Shown here piece by piece: positions 1 through 20,213 of a stretch of 20,213 nucleotides of DNA; position 1 is the stretch's first letter; every line of letters begins with the position of its first letter. Source of the DNA: a virus. A program made the translations under genes and the position numbers. Under the pieces are notes generated by a model that saw nothing but the letters and a program-made list of their open reading frames with translations, ran no database searches and was not told the origin of the DNA. The stretch lies in the IMG/VR virus record IMGVR_UViG_3300007734_000431, positions 1 to 20,213 of that record; one strand, written 5' to 3'.

Positions 1-105
1 TACGCTGGTTAGGCGCTGCTGGCCCGCTGAGGCGTAGGCCAAGCAAGCGTAACCCTCTAGTGGCCAAGTTATGCTTACTCATAAGCGCATTACTAATCAT
101 TAACA
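1..105 (+). repeat. Conserved leader block, unit A copy
   Basis: Identical to 16195-16299 except base 69 (T here, C there). It covers the leader and signal-peptide codons of the transglycosylase. TACGCT (1-6)/AGCGTA (46-51) and TGGCC (20-24)/GGCCA (37-41) could form nested stems in the leader. Confidence 0.9.
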
Positions 106-398
106 CACAAGAGGCAAGAGCATATAACCCATCTATAGAGGCCTACAAGCTCTATGCTCATATGATGGTAGGTAGCGATAAGCAATACAGGTGCCTGGTA
201 GAGCTATGGGATCGTGAGTCGCATTGGAACCCTAAGGCTGATAACCCTAAGAGCAGCGCATATGGCATACCTCAGTTACTTAATATGACTACTACTAATC
301 CATATAGGCAGATAGAGTTAGGTGTTAAGTACATAACTAAACGTTATGGTAATAGCTGTAAGGCATTGGCTAGACATAAGAGAGTAGGTCATTACTAA
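60..398 (+). CDS. Secreted lytic transglycosylase-like protein (unit A)
   Basis: A 112-aa protein that probably cuts peptidoglycan glycan strands outside the membrane. Residues 2-21 form a signal peptide (short basic start, Leu/Ile-rich core, ARA before the mature YNP). The mature part has the lysozyme-like signature WDRESHWNPKA, with Glu53 the likely catalytic acid, then SAYGIPQ and a C-terminal GVKYITKRYGNSCKAL region; Cys45 and Cys100 could form a disulfide. This pattern is typical of short SLT/Rpf-like domains of Actinobacteria and their phages. The start is GTG, chosen because the signal peptide begins there and the diverged copy at 16254 uses the same one. The stop overlaps the HNH start (TAATG). 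Placing a cell-wall enzyme before the terminase, away from the lysis genes, is unusual. It could act at entry or in lysis. Confidence 0.8.
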   Translation: MAKLCLLISALLIINTQEARAYNPSIEAYKLYAHMMVGSDKQYRCLVELWDRESHWNPKADNPKSSAYGIPQLLNMTTTNPYRQIELGVKYITKRYGNSCKALARHKRVGHY

Positions 399-739
399 TG
401 GCTAAGGCAGGCGACCCCAGGTTAAAGCGTGCTTATCGTGATGGCTTTCGCACACGCATACTGCAGCGTGATGGCTATGTCTGCTTTTACTGTGGCCAAG
501 ATGCAGACCAAGTGGATCACGTGATACCGATATCTAAAGCGCCTGAGTTAGTGGTAAGTAGTGATAACGCTGTTGCCTGTTGCAAGCGTTGTAATACGAG
601 TAAGGGTAATAGGTCACAGGGGCTTTTTTTAGCCAAGAGCGCTACCCCCCCTGTCTTTTCAGACTCTTTATCCCCGAGGACAGCCGTACGGGGCGTACAA
701 GGCCCCTGTAAGGGTCAGGAGAGCCAAGATAAAACCTAA
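398..739 (+). CDS. HNH endonuclease (unit A)
   Basis: A 113-aa HNH nuclease. The fold is seen as a zinc knuckle, Cys29-x2-Cys32 and Cys62-x2-Cys65, around the core DHVIP (His41 as general base), an Asn in DNAVAC (57), and the closing CNTSKGNR. The first 20 residues are basic and the last 35 look disordered. In HK97-like phages, HNH proteins next to the terminase take part in DNA cleavage during packaging, and the position here, overlapping the terminase start by one base (TAATG), fits that role. The codons CTT TTT TTA (residues 76-78) and a C7 run are kept in both units. Confidence 0.88.
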   Translation: MAKAGDPRLKRAYRDGFRTRILQRDGYVCFYCGQDADQVDHVIPISKAPELVVSSDNAVACCKRCNTSKGNRSQGLFLAKSATPPVFSDSLSPRTAVRGVQGPCKGQESQDKT

Positions 740-2157
740 TGGCTACCAAACCTAACCAGCCGCGTACTGGGGCAACTAGACCACGCTTAGAAAACACACC
801 GCTAAAAGGCATAACCCGAGGTGTAGAGGTCGCGCGCCTGGCCGAGGATATCGGCCTGCCTTTATTGCCCTGGCAAAGCTACGTACTTAACGATCTATTG
901 ACGATTGATAAGAATAAGCAATTCATACGCAAAACTGCCCTAGTTTTATGCGCTAGGCAAAACGGCAAAAGCCACCTAGCGCGGATGCGTGTATTAGGTG
1001 GCCTGTTTCTATTTAATGAGCGTAACCACGTCATTATCTCTAGTGCTAGAGCTATGGCCTTGACTACCTTTAGAGAAGTAGTAGATGCCATCGAGGCAGC
1101 CCCGCAGTTACGGGCGCAGCTAAAACAAGTCAAATACACTAACGGGGCTGAGGCCATTATCTTAAAAAGCGGGGCAAGGCTTGACGTTAAGGCGGCTACT
1201 AGAGATTCAGCGCGCGGCGCTACGGCAGATTTCTTATTTATTGATGAGTTACGCGAGGTGGACGAGCTGGCCTACAGCGCAGCCCTGCCAGTAACTCGCG
1301 CAAGGCCTAACGCGCAAACCTTGCTAGCAAGTAACAGCGGCGATGCCTTTAGCACTACCTTAAATGACCTACGCGAGCGATGCCTATCGCACCCGCCTGC
1401 CTCAATGGGCTATTACGAGTACAGCGCCCCGCAGTTTGCAGCCCTTACGGATCGTAAAGCCTGGGCTATGGCTAACCCTGCGCTAGGCGTTTTGATTACT
1501 GAGGCCTCAATAGCTGAGGCGCTAACTACGCAAACTACCGAGCAATTTAGGACAGAAACTCTTTGCCAATGGATCGATAGCCTGCAAAGCCCCTGGCCTC
1601 ACGGATCGGTTGAGGATGCAAGTGATATTAACCTGAGTATGGCCCCTGGGCCGCTTACAGTCTTTGCCTTTGATGTTAGCCCGAGCAGGCGCGATGCAAG
1701 CCTAGTTATGGGGCAGATATTACCTAGCGGCAAGATAGGCGTAGCCGTGCTAGAAACTTACAGCTCACAGGTGGCAGTAGATGAGGTAGTCATAGCTGCA
1801 AGTGTTAAAAAATGGTGCGATATGTACTACCCGCGTGTAGTCTGCTATGACAAGTACACTACGGCCTCAATAGCACAGCGTTTGCAGATGGCAGGGGTGC
1901 AAACCCGCGATGTATCGGGGCAGAGCTTTTATACCGCCTGTTCGGACTTCCACGATGCCCTAACCAATGACAGGCTGCGACATAGCGGCCAGGATCAACT
2001 CGTGCAACAGATGAGCAACTGCGCGGCTAAAACTAACGATAGTAGCTGGCGTATTGTGCGCCGTAAGTCTGCAGGGGCCGTAGATATACCTATTGGCCTA
2101 GCTATGGTAATTCACGTACTAGCTCAGCCTGTATCTGAGGCTAAGGTTTATAGTTAG
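739..2157 (+). CDS. terL: Large terminase subunit (unit A)
   Basis: A 472-aa packaging motor and nuclease. The ATPase half has Walker A in ARQNGKS (72-78), Walker B FLFIDE (165-170, Glu170 catalytic) and the coupling motif ASN (197-199). The nuclease half, RNase H-like, has Asp312 (FAFDVSPSR), Asp371 (YDKY) and Asp449 (VDIPIGLAMV). Length and motif order fit the HK97/phage terminase family. No small terminase was recognised; the HNH protein or an unseen protein may do that job. The start overlaps the HNH stop. A 54-bp gap with the portal promoter follows. The unit B homologue has the same length but an in-frame TGA at codon 387. Confidence 0.95.
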   Translation: MATKPNQPRTGATRPRLENTPLKGITRGVEVARLAEDIGLPLLPWQSYVLNDLLTIDKNKQFIRKTALVLCARQNGKSHLARMRVLGGLFLFNERNHVIISSARAMALTTFREVVDAIEAAPQLRAQLKQVKYTNGAEAIILKSGARLDVKAATRDSARGATADFLFIDELREVDELAYSAALPVTRARPNAQTLLASNSGDAFSTTLNDLRERCLSHPPASMGYYEYSAPQFAALTDRKAWAMANPALGVLITEASIAEALTTQTTEQFRTETLCQWIDSLQSPWPHGSVEDASDINLSMAPGPLTVFAFDVSPSRRDASLVMGQILPSGKIGVAVLETYSSQVAVDEVVIAASVKKWCDMYYPRVVCYDKYTTASIAQRLQMAGVQTRDVSGQSFYTACSDFHDALTNDRLRHSGQDQLVQQMSNCAAKTNDSSWRIVRRKSAGAVDIPIGLAMVIHVLAQPVSEAKVYS

Positions 2158-2211
2158 ACACGCCGAGCCTATATATAACTTTTTACCTGTGGATAACCTA
2201 TAATCCGCACT
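2158..2211 (+). promoter_or_regulatory. Leaderless portal promoter with DnaA-box-like spacer (unit A)
   Basis: A perfect TATAAT at 2199-2204 lies seven bases before the portal ATG (2212), so transcription should begin at or next to the start codon, giving a leaderless mRNA; there is no Shine-Dalgarno. The -35 region (about 2175-2181) is weak. The spacer holds TGTGGATAA (2188-2196), the reverse complement of the DnaA box TTATCCACA. The same arrangement recurs at 18386-18410. Confidence 0.7.
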
Positions 2212-3375
2212 ATGGGTCTATTACAAACTTTAGGCATAACTAAAAAAGATGTAACCGCCCAATTAGCCCCTGCCATAATGAACCAGGGCTACGGTGCTGG
2301 CGTTTATAGTTTTGGTGGTTTATACGGCTCAGGTAATGGCACTCCATTTATGGATCGTTACATAGCTTTGCAAGTACCAGCTGTAGCTAGATGCCGTAAT
2401 TTAATTGCAGGCGTAATCTCTAGTATAGATTTAGAGTTATACAAAAAATCTACAGGCGCAGAATTAGAAAGCCCTTTATGGTTGGAGCAGCCTGATATGC
2501 GGCAGCCACGTAGCGTTACTATTGCTATGAGCGTTGATAGCCTCTTATTTTATGGGGTCTGTTACTGGCGCGTAACTTCATTGTATGCCGATGATGGCAG
2601 GCCTAGCGGTTTTGAGTGGATAGCTAATACTCGTGTAACTGTTACAACTAATAAAGATGGCAGCGAGGTACAAAGTTATGCTGTTAATGGCGTTGTAACG
2701 CCTATGGCTGGTATTGGCAGTTTAGTCACTTTTCAAAGTTTATTACCTGGCGTACTCGAAAGTGGCGCATCCACAATACAGAGCGCGCGTGATGTACAAA
2801 AAGCGGCAGCTGTTGCAGCTGCTACACCTATGGCTACAGGATTTATTAAAAATAGTGGTGCTGACCTGCCTGAGGCACAAGTTAGCGGCATATTAGCCGC
2901 GTGGAAGGCCGCGCGCGCATCTCGATCTACTGCATACTTAACTAGCACCCTGGATTATCAAACTGTGGGCTTTAGCCCTAAAGATATGCTTTACACAGAG
3001 GCTAGCCAGTACTTAGCTACAGAGATAGCGCGTTTAATGAACGTGCCTGCATATTACATAAGCGCAGATATGAATAACTCTCTCACATATCAAAATATAT
3101 TAGATGGCCGTAAAGAATTTGTAGCTTATTCTTTGCAACCATTTATTAGCGCAATCGAGGACAGGTTATCTATGGATGATATTACAGCGCACGGCAACGT
3201 AGTGCGTTTTGCTATAGATGAGAGTTTCTTACGCGCCGATACTACTGCTCGCTTAGCAGCGTTAGAGAAGTTATTACAACTTGGTTTAATTGATGTACCA
3301 ACTGCACAATCTATGGAGCAACTAAGCCCTATGGGAATCAAAGAAGGAGCTGTACAAAATGAAATTAACGTTTAG
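2212..3375 (+). CDS. Portal protein (unit A)
   Basis: A 387-aa HK97-type portal, the dodecameric ring through which DNA enters and leaves the head and to which the tail binds. Support: typical length for compact siphovirus portals, the early segment ALQVPAVARCRNLIAG (about 53-68), and the late signature LMNVPAYYISADMNNS followed by a TYQN...FVAYSLQPFISAIE helix, which is the family hallmark. It lies between terminase and protease-capsid as expected. The ATG start has a leaderless promoter and is at the same place in both units. The last 17 bases overlap the capsid gene in both units. Confidence 0.92.
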   Translation: MGLLQTLGITKKDVTAQLAPAIMNQGYGAGVYSFGGLYGSGNGTPFMDRYIALQVPAVARCRNLIAGVISSIDLELYKKSTGAELESPLWLEQPDMRQPRSVTIAMSVDSLLFYGVCYWRVTSLYADDGRPSGFEWIANTRVTVTTNKDGSEVQSYAVNGVVTPMAGIGSLVTFQSLLPGVLESGASTIQSARDVQKAAAVAAATPMATGFIKNSGADLPEAQVSGILAAWKAARASRSTAYLTSTLDYQTVGFSPKDMLYTEASQYLATEIARLMNVPAYYISADMNNSLTYQNILDGRKEFVAYSLQPFISAIEDRLSMDDITAHGNVVRFAIDESFLRADTTARLAALEKLLQLGLIDVPTAQSMEQLSPMGIKEGAVQNEINV

Positions 3376-4933
3376 CGGCGTAGTACAGGCCGTAGATGCA
3401 GGCGAGCGCCGAGTTATCGCTGGCAAGATAGCACCCTACGATGGCGAAATAGGTTATACAAGTGCGGGCAAAGTAGTATTTAGTAAAGGATCAATTACTG
3501 CAGCTAACCCCGATAAAATTAAATTGTTAATGTCACACGATAATAGCCAACCTGTAGGGCGTATGATTTCGATACAGTCTGCAGAAGATGGCCTTTACGC
3601 TAGCTTTAAGATAAGTAGTAGCACACGCGGTAACGATGCAATTTTGCTAGCCCAGGAACAACTAATGGACGGCCTTTCCGTCGGGGTTGAAGTGACAGCC
3701 TCGGAGCCTAAAAAAGGTTATCTCCTGGTGACGGCGGCAACTTTGCGCGAGGTTTCGTTAGTCGAAGCTGCCGCCTTTCCAAGTGCCGCCGTGCAAAGTA
3801 TTGCCGCTAGCGAAAGTGAAGCGGTAGATAAAAACCAACTAACCCAACCCGAAAGCGAGGCCGCTGTGACTACAGCCCCCGAAACTCCAACCGAGGATAG
3901 CACCGAGGCTGCACCTGTAGTAGAGGCAGCACGGCCAATTATCCGATCTAACCCGCTAGATTCCCAGCGAGTACGTACACCTATTACATCAATGGGCGCA
4001 TACACAGAGCATAAGATTAAGGCAGCCCTCGGTAACGAGGATTCTAAACTTTATGTAACTGCAGCCGATGACAGTTTCTCAACAAACCCAGCTTTTAACC
4101 CAACTCAGTACCTAAGCGAGTTTCCAACTAATACACGTTTTGGCACACCATCTATAGATGCTTGCTCACGCGGCACTTTGCCAGCTAGCGGTATGACTAT
4201 TAACGTGCCATCTTTGGTTACAAGTGCAGGCGGCCAGTCAGGCGTAGCACCTAGTGTAACTGTTGAGGCCGAAGCTGGAGCCGTACAAAATACAGGTATG
4301 GTTACAGAATATTTATCAGGCACAATTAACAAGTATTCAGGTATGAACACTCTTAGCATTGAATTACTAGAACGCTCTGATCCTAATTTCTACTCTGAAT
4401 TAACACAGCAACTACAAAACGCCTACCTCAAAACCCTAGATACCACCGTAAATGCAGCACTCATAACTGCGGGTACTGTTGCTACAACTGCACAGGCAGC
4501 TACATCGGCTGGCATTATTGGTTATACCTCAGAGGCATCACGTTTGGTTTATGAGGCTACTGGCTACTTTGCTAACAATTACATCGCTAACGGCTCACAA
4601 TGGCAGCTACTATTAGGCGCATCTGATACAACAGGCCGCCCTATTTACTCAGCTAGCCAGCCAATGAACGCAGGCGGGCTAACACAGCCTGGCTCTATTC
4701 GAGGTAATGTACTTGGCCTTGATCTCTATGTAGATAAGAACTTTGCAGCTAGCACTACTGTAGATGACTCAGCAATTATCCTTGCACCTGAGGCCTTTAC
4801 TGTGTACCAATCCCCTACTGCATATATGTCAGTTAATGTCGTATCCAACTTACAGGTACAGGTAGCCATCTATGGCTATATGGCAACTATTGCCAAGATG
4901 CCTAAGGGTATTATCCGATTTAACTTCACCTAA
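3359..4933 (+). CDS. Prohead protease-major capsid fusion (unit A)
   Basis: A 524-aa polyprotein. Residues 1-150 are an HK97-type (S78/U35) prohead protease: His60 in LMSHD, Ser107 in MDGLSVGV and Glu136 in REVSLVEAAAF form the expected catalytic set. Residues 150-205 are an acidic Glu/Thr/Ala/Pro linker that may act as a scaffold (delta) domain. Residues about 210-524 are the HK97-fold capsid protein, ending in an IYGYMATIAKMPKGIIRF strand-rich tail. Fusion saves space and is common in small actinophages. AAGGAG at 3344-3349 sits nine bases before the ATG. A possible internal GTG start at codon 170 could give capsid without protease. A hairpin follows the stop. Confidence 0.93.
   Translation: MKLTFSGVVQAVDAGERRVIAGKIAPYDGEIGYTSAGKVVFSKGSITAANPDKIKLLMSHDNSQPVGRMISIQSAEDGLYASFKISSSTRGNDAILLAQEQLMDGLSVGVEVTASEPKKGYLLVTAATLREVSLVEAAAFPSAAVQSIAASESEAVDKNQLTQPESEAAVTTAPETPTEDSTEAAPVVEAARPIIRSNPLDSQRVRTPITSMGAYTEHKIKAALGNEDSKLYVTAADDSFSTNPAFNPTQYLSEFPTNTRFGTPSIDACSRGTLPASGMTINVPSLVTSAGGQSGVAPSVTVEAEAGAVQNTGMVTEYLSGTINKYSGMNTLSIELLERSDPNFYSELTQQLQNAYLKTLDTTVNAALITAGTVATTAQAATSAGIIGYTSEASRLVYEATGYFANNYIANGSQWQLLLGASDTTGRPIYSASQPMNAGGLTQPGSIRGNVLGLDLYVDKNFAASTTVDDSAIILAPEAFTVYQSPTAYMSVNVVSNLQVQVAIYGYMATIAKMPKGIIRFNFT
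3849..3882 (+). promoter_or_regulatory. Possible internal start for free capsid protein (unit A)
   Basis: GAGG at 3857-3860 lies five bases before an in-frame GTG (3866-3868, codon 170). A block of about 33 bases here is identical in unit B, whereas the rest of the linker differs in sequence and length. Initiation here would give a 355-aa capsid protein without the protease. Confidence 0.35.
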
Positions 4934-14906: not shown

Positions 14907-15042
14907 GTGCAGAAAGTGCAAGAAAGTAACCAACCAGCTAGAGCGCATAGTTACCGATAACCTGCCGCCTAATGTAAAGGTGTTGGAGTGTAGCGTATGT
15001 GGCATTATGGGCGTGTGCTTATTAGAGGCTACCGATGCTTAA
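14884..15042 (+). CDS. Small zinc-ribbon protein, 52 aa
   Basis: A short frame starting at ATG 14884 with AAGGAG (14869-14874) nine bases upstream, the clearest ribosome site in the cluster. Product: MSDYIRFECRKCKKVTNQLE, then VLECSVCGIMGVC. Two Cys pairs (Cys9/Cys12 and Cys36/Cys39, plus Cys45) suggest a zinc ribbon. It overlaps the gene before by 23 bases and the methyltransferase by 8. Function unknown; nucleic acid binding is plausible. Confidence 0.62.
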   Translation: MSDYIRFECRKCKKVTNQLERIVTDNLPPNVKVLECSVCGIMGVCLLEATDA

Positions 15043-16105
15043 AATAGGCTCGCTCTGTACGGGTTACGGCGGCCTTGATATGGCAGTAGAGGCTTACTAT
15101 GGGGCAGAAACTGTGTGGGTATCGGAGTTTGACAAGTACGCTAGTAAAGTCATAGAGGCAAGAATAAATAAGCCTAACTTAGGTAACTTAAAAGTAATTA
15201 ACTGGGCTGAGTTAGAGCCTATAGACATACTCACGGCTGGATATCCTTGCCAGCCCTTTAGCCACGCAGGACTTAGAAAGGGTGTAGAAGATGAAAGACA
15301 CTTATGGCCATATATCAAAACAGCCATTAGCACATTACGACCCAGCTACGTCATCTTGGAAAACGTACGAGGACATTTTGGACTTGGGTTTAGAGAAGTC
15401 CTCTGTGACTTTACCTCTATCGGGTATGACGTGCGATGGACTCTTATACGAGCTAGTGACGTTGGAGCGCCCCATAGACGAGAGCGACTATTTATCCTTG
15501 CCTACCCCAATAGCACACGATGGCCACGAGCCAAGCCCAGCGACCTTCAAGCGCAACAGTCCTGGAATAGCAGCAGTAATACTTATGAATATACCAACAC
15601 CGACGGCCAGCGGTGCTATCTGGGACAAAACTACGGCAACGAGGTCGAATATCAAGGGCAATCACAACTTATCGCTAGCCGACTGGTCGAAGCAATTACT
15701 ACCCACACCGACGGCGATACACGTACGCAATCACGACGAGCCAGTAGAGAATTACGAGCAGAGAGTACAGGACTACAAAGAGGGCAAGACAAAGGGCAAG
15801 CCAGGGGCCAGTCTAGGGGTAGCGTTAAGACTGTTTCCGACACCGACGACGGGCGAGGGGTCAGGACAGTGCCGAGATTATCGCAGCGATATGACCCACG
15901 CAGCTCTATGCACTTGCAAGAAGTACCGACTCCATTGGATCAAGGTAAATTAAATGTAAAGTTCGTTGAATATATGATGGGCTTGCCTAATGGATGGGTA
16001 ACAGATATAGACTTACCACGCGCTCAAATGCTTAAGATATTGGGTAATGGTGTTGTACCTCAACAGGCTTATAGAGTTTTAGAATTGCTCAATAATGTTA
16101 AATAG
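15035..16105 (+). CDS. C5-cytosine DNA methyltransferase
   Basis: A 356-aa enzyme that transfers a methyl group from SAM to cytosine C5. Motif I SLCTGYGGLD (6-15), motif IV TAGYPCQPFSHAG with nucleophile Cys72, motif VI ENV (109-111), motif VIII GAPHRRERLF (144-153) and motif X LGNGVVPQQA (336-345) are intact. Residues about 155-300 form a variable region, the likely target recognition part, rich in NTDG/DTDD-like turns and Gln/Arg. The closing LNVKFVEYMMGLPNGWVT is typical of phage enzymes. It may protect phage DNA from host restriction; no paired restriction enzyme was seen. A 220-codon ORF in the +1 frame overlaps residues 86-306. The stop is right before the DnaA-box-like cluster. Confidence 0.93.
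   Translation: MLKIGSLCTGYGGLDMAVEAYYGAETVWVSEFDKYASKVIEARINKPNLGNLKVINWAELEPIDILTAGYPCQPFSHAGLRKGVEDERHLWPYIKTAISTLRPSYVILENVRGHFGLGFREVLCDFTSIGYDVRWTLIRASDVGAPHRRERLFILAYPNSTRWPRAKPSDLQAQQSWNSSSNTYEYTNTDGQRCYLGQNYGNEVEYQGQSQLIASRLVEAITTHTDGDTRTQSRRASRELRAESTGLQRGQDKGQARGQSRGSVKTVSDTDDGRGVRTVPRLSQRYDPRSSMHLQEVPTPLDQGKLNVKFVEYMMGLPNGWVTDIDLPRAQMLKILGNGVVPQQAYRVLELLNNVK
15291..15953 (+). CDS. Overlapping +1-frame ORF, PTPTA-motif family
   Basis: A 220-codon frame inside the methyltransferase gene. AAAGGG (15277-15282) lies eight bases before its ATG. The product begins MKDTYGHISKQPLAHYDP, then SSWKTYEDIL, LPLSGMTCDGLLYEL and four motifs of the form (L/I/F)PTPxA-like: 70-78, 101-108, 137-142 and 182-188. 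Phrases such as SSWKT, PxSGM..G and LPTPTA..G are known from phage methyltransferase-associated proteins, so the frame does not look random. In this region the main frame encodes motifs VI-VIII and the variable part, and each PTP motif falls on a PN/NTD/HTD/DTD turn. It may be a translated overlapping gene, or a relic of a frame change in the family. Confidence 0.5.
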   Translation: MKDTYGHISKQPLAHYDPATSSWKTYEDILDLGLEKSSVTLPLSGMTCDGLLYELVTLERPIDESDYLSLPTPIAHDGHEPSPATFKRNSPGIAAVILMNIPTPTASGAIWDKTTATRSNIKGNHNLSLADWSKQLLPTPTAIHVRNHDEPVENYEQRVQDYKEGKTKGKPGASLGVALRLFPTPTTGEGSGQCRDYRSDMTHAALCTCKKYRLHWIKVN

Positions 16106-16194: not shown

Positions 16195-16299
16195 TACGCT
16201 GGTTAGGCGCTGCTGGCCCGCTGAGGCGTAGGCCAAGCAAGCGTAACCCTCTAGTGGCCAAGCTATGCTTACTCATAAGCGCATTACTAATCATTAACA
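16195..16299 (+). repeat. Conserved leader block, unit B copy
   Basis: Partner of the block at 1-105, with one base difference. The window begins exactly at the first base of this block, so its extent further upstream cannot be compared. It is the natural joining point between the two units. Confidence 0.9.
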
Positions 16300-16595
16300 T
16301 AGAGCCAGTAAGAGCTGCATATAACCCAAACATAGAGGCATATAAGCTCTATGCTCATATGATGATAGGCAGCGATAAGCAATACAGGTGCCTGGTCGAG
16401 CTATGGGATCGTGAGAGCCATTGGAACCCTAAGGCTAATAACCCTAAGAGCAGCGCATACGGCATACCTCAACTGTTACATATGACCAGCACTAATCCAT
16501 ATAGGCAGATAGAGTTAGGTGTTAAGTACATAACTAAACGTTATGGTAATAGCTGTAAGGCATTGGCTAGACATAAGAGAGTAGGTCATTACTAA
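16254..16595 (+). CDS. Secreted lytic transglycosylase-like protein (unit B)
   Basis: A 113-aa homologue of the first gene, about ten residues different, most of them in the signal peptide end (INIEPVRAAYNP) and three in the middle. Glu54 in WDRESHWNPKA and SAYGIPQ are kept. One Ala codon is inserted near the cleavage site. The frame is open back to ATG 16095, but that extension would cross the DnaA-box-like cluster and bury the signal peptide, so the GTG at 16254 is preferred. The last 105 bases (16491-16595) are identical to unit A. The stop abuts the next ATG (TAAATG) instead of overlapping as in unit A. Confidence 0.8.
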   Translation: MAKLCLLISALLIINIEPVRAAYNPNIEAYKLYAHMMIGSDKQYRCLVELWDRESHWNPKANNPKSSAYGIPQLLHMTSTNPYRQIELGVKYITKRYGNSCKALARHKRVGHY

Positions 16596-16937
16596 ATGGC
16601 TAAGGCAGGTGATCCACGCATACAGCGAGCCTATCGCTACACCTTTAGGACTAGGATACTGCGCCGTGATGGCTTTATCTGTTATTACTGTGGTGGTGAT
16701 GCTGACCAGGTCGATCACGTTATCCCAATCTCTGTAGCACCTGAGCTAGTGGTCAATGCTGAGAACGCTGTTGCCTGTTGCAAGCCGTGTAATACGAGTA
16801 AGGGTAATCGCCCACAGGGGCTTTTTTTAGCCAAGACGGCTACCCCCCCTGTCTTTTCTGACCTTTTATCCCCAAAAACGTCTGTAATGACCCAGCAAGG
16901 CCCTTGTACTGGCCAACCCGAGCAGGATAAAAACTAA
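16596..16937 (+). CDS. HNH endonuclease (unit B)
   Basis: A 113-aa homologue with both zinc Cys pairs (CYYC, CKPC), DHVIP and CNTSKGNR intact, so it should be active. The C-terminal tail after residue 90 differs more (LLSPKTSVMTQQGP). The T7 and C7 runs of the unit A gene are kept. It overlaps the terminase start by one base. Confidence 0.88.
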   Translation: MAKAGDPRIQRAYRYTFRTRILRRDGFICYYCGGDADQVDHVIPISVAPELVVNAENAVACCKPCNTSKGNRPQGLFLAKTATPPVFSDLLSPKTSVMTQQGPCTGQPEQDKN

Positions 16938-18355
16938 TGGCAACCAAACCTAAACAGGCGCTACGAGGGGCGGTCAAACCACGGCTTGAAAACAAACCGC
17001 TGAAAGGCCCCAGCCGTGGCGATGAAGTTGCACAGCTGGCCGAGGATATTGGCCTGCCGCTTTTACCCTGGCAACGCTACGTAATGCAGGATATGTTGAC
17101 GATAGATAAAAATAAAATGTTTATTAGAAAGACAAACTTGCTATTGACCTCACGCCAACAAGGAAAGAGCCACCTGGCGCGTATGCGTATCCTGGCGGGT
17201 TTATTCTTGTTTAACGAGCGTAACCACGTGGTTATCTCCTCAGCGCGATCTATGGCATTAACGACTTTTAGAGAAGTGGCACAAGCTATAGAGGATGCAC
17301 CTATCCTAAAAAAAGAGCTAAAGAGCATCCGTTATGCAAACGGTAATGAGGCTATAGTCCTAAAGTCAGGTGCCCGCCTAGATGTTAGAGCTGCTACACG
17401 TGACTCAGCCCGCGGTGCCACGGCAGATTTTCTATTTATAGATGAACTACGAGAAGTTGACCAAGTTGCTTTTGCAGCTGCGATGCCAGTAACCCGCGCA
17501 CGGCCAAACGCCCAAACCCTACTAGCCAGTAATGCAGGCGATGCTTTTAGCGTGACGTTAAACGAGTTAAGGGAGCGATGCCTAGCACACCCGCCTGAGT
17601 CTTTAGGCTATTACGAGTACAGCGCCCCACAGTTTGCAGCTTTAGATGATCGTAAAGCCTGGGCGCAAGCCAACCCAGCTTTAGGCATATTGGTAACTGA
17701 GGCATCTATTCAAGAGGCGCTCACGACACAAACCACCGAGCAATTTAGGACGGAGACGTTATGCCAATGGATAGATAGGCTACAATCACCGTGGCCCCAC
17801 GGCAGCGTTGAGGATGCCAGCGACATAACCCTAAAAATGGCACCTGGGCCTTTAACTATTTTTGCCTTTGATGTTAGCCCGTCTAGGCGCGATGCAAGTC
17901 TTGTAATGGGTCAACTATTGCCTGACGGGCGCATAGGCGTAGCTGTATTAGAGACTTACAGCTCACAGGTTGCCGTAGATGAGCTAGTTATAGCTGCAAG
18001 TATTAAAAAATGGGCTGACCTGTATTACCCACGTTTGGTTTGCTATGACAAGTACACCACTCAGAGTATTGCCCAGCGTTTACAAAATGCAGGGTGACAA
18101 ACTCGCGACATATCAGGGCAGAGCTTTTATACAGCTTGTTCAGACTTTCACGATGCCCTGGTCAATGATCGGCTACGCCATAGCGGCCAAGATTTACTTA
18201 TACAACAAATGGCCAACTGCGCAGCTAAAATAACACCCGATGCCTGGCGAATTGTGCGCCGTAAATCGGCTGGCCCTGTGGATATTCCAATCGGCTTAGC
18301 TATGGTTATTCATATCCTGGCTCAGCCTGTATCTGAGGCTAAAGTTTACGTTTAG
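16937..18355 (+). pseudogene. terL: Large terminase with in-frame TGA (unit B)
   Basis: The full frame has 473 codons, as in unit A, but codon 387 is TGA (18095-18097), where unit A has GTG (Val). Upstream the ATPase motifs are intact (SRQQGKS, FLFIDE, ASN) and so are the first two nuclease aspartates (FAFDVSPSR, YDKY). The stop cuts off the last nuclease segment (VDIPIGLAMV). Downstream the frame stays open to TAG 18353-18355 with mostly synonymous changes, so the damage is recent, is a sequence error, or the stop is read through. GGGGTG in A versus GGGTGA in B could come from two compensating one-base changes. TGA serves as an ordinary stop elsewhere (9622, 13596, 14204, 14904), so recoding is unlikely. 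Confidence 0.75.
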
Positions 18356-18409
18356 ACACGCCGAGGTTGTGTATAACTTTATACCTGTGGATAACCTATA
18401 ATCCGCCCT
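18356..18409 (+). promoter_or_regulatory. Leaderless portal promoter with DnaA-box-like spacer (unit B)
   Basis: TATAAT (18397-18402) lies seven bases before the portal ATG at 18410, and TGTGGATAA (18386-18394) fills the spacer. The stretch ACCTGTGGATAACC through TATAATCCGC is unchanged from unit A, though the upstream half of the gap differs. Confidence 0.7.
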
Positions 18410-19573
18410 ATGGGTCTATTGCAAACTTTTGGATTATCTAAAAAAGATGTTACTGCCCAGCTAGCCCCTGCCGTTATGTCACAAGGTTACGGCGCTGGCG
18501 TTTATAGCTACGGCGGCCTGTATGCAACTGGCAACGGTGCCCCGTTTATGGATCGCTTTACAGCTTTGCAAGTGCCAGCTGTTAATCGTTGCCGTAATTT
18601 AATTGCAGGCGTTATATCAAGTATTGATTTAGAGCTATACAAAAAATCTACAGGTGTAGAAATGGAAAGCCCGCTATGGCTTGACCAACCCGATATGCGC
18701 CAACCACGTAGCGTAACTATTGCTTATACCGTTGATTCACTTTTATTTTATGGCGTTGCATATTGGCGCGTTACAAGTTTGTACGCCGATGACGGGCGCC
18801 CTAGCGGTTTTGAGTGGGTTGCTAATACTCGCGTAACTGTTACAACTAACAAATATGGCGATGAGGTTGAGTATTATTCTGTTAATGGTGAGCGCGCACC
18901 TATGGCGGGTATTGGATCACTCGTTACTTTTCAATCTTTGTTACCTGGCGTATTAGAGACAGGTGCCCGCACAATACAAGCTGCAATAGATTTAGAAAAG
19001 GCCGCAAGTGTTGCAGCTGCTACACCAATGCCTACAGGATTTATTAAAAATAGTGGTGCCGATTTACCTGAGGCACAGATAAGCGGTTTGCTGGCTGCGT
19101 GGAAAGCAGCACGTGCATCACGCAGTACAGCATATTTAACAAGTACTTTAGATTATCAACAGGTTGGCTTTAGTCCTAAAGATATGATGTACAACGAGGC
19201 CAGCCAGTATTTAGCTACACAGATAGCGCGTTTAATGAACGTACCTGCATATTACATAAGTGCAGATATGAATAACTCAACGACTTACCAAAATATCTTA
19301 GACGGGCGCAAGGAGTTTGTCGCATATTCTTTGCAACCGTTTATCAGCGCTATTGAAAACCGTTTATCTATGGATGATATTACGGCGCACGGTAACGTAG
19401 TGCGCTTTGCGTTAGATGAAACTTTTTTACGTGCCGATACTGCAGCACGTTTAGATGCAATAGAGAAAATGCTCAATTTAGGTTTAATTGATCTACAACA
19501 AGCTCAGAGTATGGAACAGCTAAGCCCAATGGGCCTTAATGAAGGGAACGGCACTAATGATATTAACCTTTAG
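18410..19573 (+). CDS. Portal protein (unit B)
   Basis: A 387-aa portal, the same length as in unit A, with the same HK97 signature (LMNVPAYYISADMNNS, FVAYSLQPFISAIE). Differences are scattered and mostly mild (for example MDRYIA/MDRFTA). It starts leaderless like its partner and overlaps the capsid gene by 17 bases. Nothing looks broken, which contrasts with the terminase before it. Confidence 0.92.
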   Translation: MGLLQTFGLSKKDVTAQLAPAVMSQGYGAGVYSYGGLYATGNGAPFMDRFTALQVPAVNRCRNLIAGVISSIDLELYKKSTGVEMESPLWLDQPDMRQPRSVTIAYTVDSLLFYGVAYWRVTSLYADDGRPSGFEWVANTRVTVTTNKYGDEVEYYSVNGERAPMAGIGSLVTFQSLLPGVLETGARTIQAAIDLEKAASVAAATPMPTGFIKNSGADLPEAQISGLLAAWKAARASRSTAYLTSTLDYQQVGFSPKDMMYNEASQYLATQIARLMNVPAYYISADMNNSTTYQNILDGRKEFVAYSLQPFISAIENRLSMDDITAHGNVVRFALDETFLRADTAARLDAIEKMLNLGLIDLQQAQSMEQLSPMGLNEGNGTNDINL

Positions 19574-20213
19574 TGGCAATATAGAGGCAGTAGATAGTGG
19601 AGACCGCCGCACTATTTCAGGCAAAATTGCACCTTACGGTGAGGTTGGTTATACAAGCGCGGGCAAAGTAGTTTTTGCTGAGGGTTCAATTAGCGCACCT
19701 GAGCCAAGCCGAGTAAAACTTTTAATGTCGCACGATAACTCAAAGCCAGTTGGACGTATGCAAAGCATTACATCTGCCAAAGACGGTTTATATGCAAGTT
19801 TTAAGGTAAGTGCCTCATCACGGGGCAGCGATGCAATTTTGCTAGCCCAGGAACAACTTATGGACGGCTTATCCGTTGGTGTGGAAGTTACCGCATCAGA
19901 GCCTAAAAAAGATTATCTCCTGGTCACCGCTGCCACCTTACGCGAGGTGTCACTTGTTGAGAGCGCTGCCTTTGCCAGCGCTGCGGTGCAAAAAATTGCT
20001 GCCGCTGCAGGCGATATGCCTGTGGATGCTGCTATGTCACAAAGTACAAAAGTTACAACTACCAATACGGTAATAAACACAACCACAACCGAAACCGAAA
20101 CCGAAAGCGAGGCCGCTGTGACTACAGCCCCCGATCAATCCGCACCTGAGGCAGTAGATGCCACAGAGCAGGCTGCACCTACAGTAGAGGCAGCTCGTAA
20201 AATCATCCTACCA
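19557..20213 (+). CDS. Prohead protease-capsid fusion, 5' part (unit B)
   Basis: An open frame of 219 codons cut by the window end. Protease residues His59 (LMSHD), Ser106 (MDGLSVGV) and the Glu in REVSLVESAAF are kept, so the protease should work. The linker is longer than in unit A: it adds a Gln/Thr/Asn stretch (AMSQSTKVTTTNTVINTTTT) and a Glu-Thr repeat before the shared ESEAAVTTAP. GAAGGGA upstream serves as ribosome site. The capsid half lies beyond the window. Confidence 0.9.
   Translation, partial: MILTFSGNIEAVDSGDRRTISGKIAPYGEVGYTSAGKVVFAEGSISAPEPSRVKLLMSHDNSKPVGRMQSITSAKDGLYASFKVSASSRGSDAILLAQEQLMDGLSVGVEVTASEPKKDYLLVTAATLREVSLVESAAFASAAVQKIAAAAGDMPVDAAMSQSTKVTTTNTVINTTTTETETESEAAVTTAPDQSAPEAVDATEQAAPTVEAARKIILP
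20100..20133 (+). promoter_or_regulatory. Possible internal start for free capsid protein (unit B)
   Basis: GAGG (20109-20112) and in-frame GTG (20118-20120) repeat the unit A arrangement within an identical block of about 33 bases, while the linker sequence on both sides differs. Confidence 0.35.

Follow-up and report, generated by a model that had tools for sequence, protein, structure and literature searches.

The methyltransferase gene and the reading frame nested in it

The window, by which we mean the whole analysed stretch of 20,213 nucleotides of viral DNA, carries on its plus strand a gene (A, 15035..16105) for a C5-cytosine DNA methyltransferase of 356 aa, which matches PF00145 with an E-value of 3.9e-44 over residues 3-350 (Pfam) and phrog_363 with an E-value of 2.4e-64 (PHROGs). 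The C5 methyltransferase motifs of A follow each other in order, with motif I starting at 15053, IV (PCQ) at 15245, VI (ENV, here LENV) at 15356, VIII at 15479, IX (VEYMMGLP) at 15965 and X (GNGVV) at 16043. Nested in A, on the same strand and in the +1 frame, is a second ORF (B, 15291..15953) of 220 codons with an ATG start and a TAA stop; all of its 663 nt lie within A, which is read in frame 0. A preliminary description of this DNA, made from the letters alone, had pointed out the nested ORF, and we find it as described there.

The first part of B (YDPATSSWKT ... PLSGMTCDG ... YEL; 15291..15500, plus strand), here termed the N-terminal domain, lies over motifs V-VIII of A and is conserved in both frames. 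It is followed on the same strand by four modules with PTP motifs: module 1, PTPIAHDGHEPSPATFKRNSPGIAAVILMNI, at 15501..15593; module 2, PTPTASGAIWDKTTATRSNIKGNHNLSLADWSKQLL, at 15594..15701; module 3, PTPTAIHVRNHDEPVENYEQRVQDYKEGKTKGKPGASLGVALRLF, which is also present in the distant loci L017, L020 and L023, at 15702..15836; and module 4 with a conserved C-terminus, ...CTCKKYRLHWIKVN, at 15837..15950. The individual +1 motifs noted before, SSWKT (15351), SGM (15420) and the four PTP motifs (15501, 15594, 15702 and 15837), are all in place, and they overlie motif VI of the main frame and its AYPN, NTDG, HTDG and DTDD turns. The part 3' of the B stop (15954..16105, plus strand) belongs to A only and holds motifs IX and X. 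Upstream, a possible ribosome site of B, AGAAAGGG, is found on the plus strand at 15275..15282, 8 nt before the ATG, and a TAG stop in the B frame at 15285..15287, two codons before it.

Positions 1-3807 and 16195-20002 of the window share 77% identity, and their genes (HNH, terminase, portal and others) are arranged alike. One genome length is ~16.2 kb; beyond it, the contig continues with another, related phage genome, and it is probably a chimeric assembly; the contigs of some relatives are likewise ~16 kb long.

A protein search, as had been proposed for the +1 product, found relatives of B in 127 phage records (tblastn), together with a match to phrog_1008 ('DNA methyltransferase') with an E-value of 3.8e-22 at profile positions 61-204 (PHROGs). 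Positions 259-315 of the same profile match the C-terminus of A, the match to motifs IX-X being to A residues 302-350 and not to B. The profile spans a B-type region joined to IX-X, whereas the window splits the two between frames, and the matches to B and to the A C-terminus imply that a family with B-type sequence and an IX-X end in one protein exists; the description shown for phrog_1008 has no mention of an overlap with the methyltransferase gene. Proteins of this kind, with PTPTA and ...GNGVVPQQA in one chain, had been mentioned in the preliminary description, and they are indeed found, both among loci with a split B (L079, L086, L017) and among fused ones (L080, L095, L096). B gave no Pfam match at threshold and none in NCBIfam or PADLOC. 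A resemblance to designed Kelch repeats (SAKe6) among PDB sequence matches was discarded, as it arose because a 20-residue motif recurs in the target, and no single stretch reached significance.

Selection on both frames and the start of B

For the window, 24 further freshwater sequences and 3 actinophage relatives, the A protein was kept and its codons redrawn synonymously from codon usage. In the window, the redraws gave an expectation of 4.9 B-frame stops in the part over motifs V-VIII and of 7.0 in the rest, with 0 observed in both. For the freshwater relatives, ~5-7 stops were expected in the first part and 3-9 in the rest, and none were found except one in L038; for the GC-rich actinophages, the stop count is uninformative, as too few stops are expected. 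The one exception, a TAA in frame at B codon 16 (L038:3254-3721), occurs in a relative that is otherwise conserved, as either a real loss or a sequence error. Scattered stops in the relatives, which the preliminary description had named as evidence against B, are thus absent apart from this one, and the +1 frame stays open and conserved.

Among the freshwater relatives, with the exception of the near-copy L024, identity to B of the window is 40-93% over motifs V-VIII, where 23-32% would be expected, and 42-98% after motif VIII, where 18-33% would be expected. Over the latter part, the identity of A is 26-81% in the same relatives and 26-57% in all but the closest ones; the B frame is there better conserved than A, as in L028, with 92% for B and 57% for A. 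In a control stretch of A outside the overlap, +1-frame identity is about that expected for divergent relatives. In the reverse test, with B fixed and its codons redrawn, 3-12 stops in A were expected per segment and 0 found, and the codon usage of A is disturbed inside the overlap only, being normal before and after. With an HMM of the B N-terminal domain, real loci scored 49-105 bits, compared with means of 14-37 bits in synonymous redraws of A.

On the strength of the stop, identity, reverse-redraw and codon-usage tests, we consider both frames to be under selection, and, as judged from these sequences, dual coding of A and B is close to certain. That the +1 ORF is no gene and stems from codon bias and the conserved motifs of the methyltransferase is very improbable: A does impose some likeness on its +1 frame, which is why the redraws still average appreciable scores with the B model, but the observed scores, openness and identity lie far outside the redraws, and beyond motif VIII it is B that is more conserved. 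At the level of selection, the synonymous redraws rule out a chance ORF or a shadow of A.

The preliminary description had also given B a ribosome site of its own. The sequence AGAAAGGG is present, but in synonymous redraws it proved no stronger than the chance product of the Arg-Lys-Gly codons of A; for this reason it is weak evidence alone and only compatible with such a site. The ATG of B is kept in 28/28 sequences, being one codon earlier in L019 and L043. In the AT-rich set, codon usage alone (Asp codon GAT) would retain it with a probability of ~0.77 in each sequence, and its conservation in that set, partly free via the GAT codons of A, was discarded as proof of the B start. It carries more weight in L087 and L082, two GC-rich actinophages that also keep the ATG and in which GAT is uncommon (3/25 and 5/28 Asp codons, respectively).

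Internal initiation at ATG 15291 is the best reading of these data, with programmed frameshifting to a fusion the less likely one; the TAG at 15285-15287 shows that B of the window is not entered by a frameshift from upstream. A model in which programmed ribosomal frameshifting from A joins A and B in one chain, placing the PTP region in cis and leaving no separate B, could draw on the fused relatives (ShiLan gp70, Ramsey gp69, L177-L191), as they suggest that a cis arrangement can work. We nevertheless consider it unlikely, given that conservation extends to the ATG of B and to the domain preceding any useful shift site, that the B-frame TAG precedes this ATG by two codons, that a fusion in the window would take two shifts, first into B and then out again to reach IX-X, and that B of the proteobacterial type, described below, starts 4 nt after the start of A.

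Distribution, architectures and exchange of modules

In nearly all of ~300 loci checked, which span phages and prophages of Actinobacteria, Proteobacteria and others, the B N-terminal domain overlaps A in the +1 frame. By the N-domain HMM, nearly all B-type loci have this domain in the +1 frame of A, either overlapping A or next to it, and none has it in another frame. In the loci surveyed, the overlap is the rule and not peculiar to the gene of the window, a point that the preliminary description had missed. B of the proteobacterial type (MSWLFSQAL...) begins 4 nt downstream of the A start, spans nearly the whole gene and is free of stops in 80/80 viral contigs. The start of A (ATG, GTG or TTG) lies exactly 4 nt before the ATG of B in 75/80 of these loci, e.g. 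ATGAATGAG, with a GA-rich ribosome site just upstream of the paired starts in the proteobacterial examples inspected; with the starts this close, a single ribosome site would suffice for both frames. In L097-L176, the two start codons, 4 nt apart, are found around position 1997-2001.

When bacterial and archaeal genomes were scanned with the proteobacterial B set, 79 loci were obtained; their sources include Pseudomonas, Acinetobacter, Enterobacteriaceae, Chromobacterium, Halomonas, Verrucomicrobia and Nitrospirae MAGs. Such a scan starts from B-type patterns, so that it gives no share among all C5 methyltransferases. Contigs cut inside the gene apart, A is present in the -1 frame under B in these loci, and no free-standing B was found among the 79. 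Nine loci seemingly without A turned out to be misses of the motif pattern or contigs ending inside the gene. The phage methyltransferases L048-L078, a distinct and distant group, several with GEQVA instead of ENV, also contain nested +1 ORFs of 230-540 aa, several of them with WPTP repeats and RWLMG-type ends; this group was tested less fully, with the B model scoring less clearly, or not, above the redraws in 4/5 cases.

The same parts (motifs I-VIII, the N-domain, the PTP modules, IX and X) are divided between the frames in four ways; each of the four architectures has them all, and they stay linked. In the proteobacterial type, X is in A and IX in B; in the window, Gordonia JKSyngboy and CheeseTouch, and Rhodococcus ReT1v-2, IX and X are in A and the PTP modules in B only; in Upyo, Samy, Float294, phiBT1 and L017, IX and X are both in B; and in Ramsey, ShiLan and prophiGD91-2, the PTP modules and IX-X are fused into the A frame, with the N-terminal domain of B persisting as a short nested ORF. 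In a tree of the A core, the proteobacterial type stands apart and the other three change into one another; the four states require 7 changes. The classes derive from motif patterns, by which 47/328 loci could not be assigned, and the tree was quickly built and has many weakly supported forks. An old frame swap or overprinting had been suspected in the preliminary description, and both are supported by the relatives, in which IX-X and the PTP region changed frame repeatedly. The mycobacteriophage loci L081 (Jarcob) and L095 (ShiLan) are near-identical and one deletion apart; the deletion joins the N-domain of B to motif VIII and PTP-IX-X in one frame, with A truncated after VI.

ShiLan gp70 and its fused relatives have their PTP modules between VIII and IX of the methyltransferase chain. 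Relatives of the window share its modules 1-4 in combinations such as 1-3-4, 1-2-3, 1-2, 1-3 and 2-4, which end in the same kind of C-terminus (YRLHWIKV in the window). Module 3 remains 62-66% identical in loci where the likeness of A drops to 33-38%. As far as sequence comparison goes, this pattern looks like an exchange of recognition cassettes.

An out-of-frame ORF in a phage methylase gene is also known from the ShiLan domain, an HNH homing endonuclease reading frame inserted in the methylase (PMC11855218); it resembles B in being out of frame but is an insertion and no overprint of the core. B as a hidden homing endonuclease of this kind is hardly conceivable: both are out-of-frame ORFs within actinophage methylase genes, yet the ShiLan domain has been inserted and matches HNH, whereas B overlies the conserved methyltransferase core with no insertion and has no HNH match in Pfam or PHROGs.

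A proposed two-subunit enzyme and its known counterparts

A and B probably form a heteromeric C5-cytosine methyltransferase, with A as the catalytic subunit and B contributing modular target recognition. In this proposal, A would supply motifs I-VIII and, after a long spacer, IX-X; B, initiated internally at ATG 15291, would supply the N-terminal domain (SSWKT/SGM) and the four PTP modules, which would take the place of a target-recognition region and read the target sequence; and the two chains would assemble to the active enzyme, probably an orphan methyltransferase marking the phage DNA. In C5 methyltransferases, the target-recognition domain is located between motifs VIII and IX. A seems to be without such a region, because its VIII-IX stretch is a poorly conserved spacer. 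A separate B protein, its binding to A and target reading by the PTP modules are inferred from sequence. In AlphaFold2 predictions, B alone gave no fold (pLDDT 39), while the fused relative L177 gave a good methyltransferase core that was matched to M.HhaI with an E-value of 3.5e-13 and no confident fold for its PTP modules; the recognition role of the modules is therefore argued from their position and modularity.

B could also be a real overprinted protein with another job, for example inhibiting a host nuclease or regulating A. Such a role would suit a protein that is conserved and has no Pfam match at threshold and no NCBIfam or PADLOC match, but it is rather unlikely, as IX and X shift between A and B, and PTP between B and the methyltransferase chain, which fits one enzyme, and no B was found apart from A in the genome scan. 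Multispecific phage C5 methyltransferases (Bacillus phages SPbeta and phi3T) carry several recognition domains. They share with the window family a variable VIII-IX region of exchangeable modules, a likeness in arrangement; in the window family, however, most of the modules are read in another frame.

Among characterised enzymes, M.EcoHK31I and M.AquI are, in our analysis of motif layout, the nearest, and the window fits their kind and differs in the partition. M.EcoHK31I is a YGGCCR methyltransferase, the beta chain of which Lee et al. reportedly described in 1995 as encoded inside alpha in another frame. It is a two-chain enzyme with motifs I-VIII and X in alpha and IX in beta, and its predicted recognition domain is placed in alpha (PMC3404938). 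Judged by motif layout, the proteobacterial relatives, with X in A and IX in B, match this arrangement. The window likewise has two conserved frames, and two predicted chains, in one gene region, but IX and X are both in A, B ends before IX, and the recognition-like modules are in B and not in the counterpart of alpha. In M.AquI, the large chain has motifs I-VIII and the small chain the distal variable region with IX-X (PMC3404938); it is resembled by the split relatives L079, L086 and L017, whereas the window keeps IX-X in A and has B overlapping A along its whole length. A non-exhaustive search of the open literature found no description of the overlap as a widespread feature.

Annotations usually list a single one of the two proteins: PGAP in E. 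coli shows the methyltransferase alone, and phage annotations contain either A or B by itself, or shortened forms of both. In phiBT1 (L093, 1227-1727 and 1345-2277), gp9.1 is annotated as a DNA methylase, possibly inactive; an unannotated +1 ORF of 310 aa, with a PTP motif and motif X, lies over and beyond it. Hundreds of relatives of the overlap are cut or hidden by annotation rules that allow one gene per stretch. We predict that phage methylases deemed possibly inactive, such as phiBT1 gp9.1, are active together with a partner missing from the annotation, and that A may fail when its gene is cloned without B or recoded synonymously.

Long overlaps on the same strand with selection shown on both frames are rarely documented in bacteria and phages, and the natural frame-swap variants of this family are material for studying the origin and resolution of overlapping genes. 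More tentatively, a large share of phage C5 methyltransferase genes might be dual-coded, with an overprinted specificity subunit locked to the catalytic gene across phyla, and with PTP modules exchanged as cassettes, necessarily legible in two frames, of which each module or combination would set the target.
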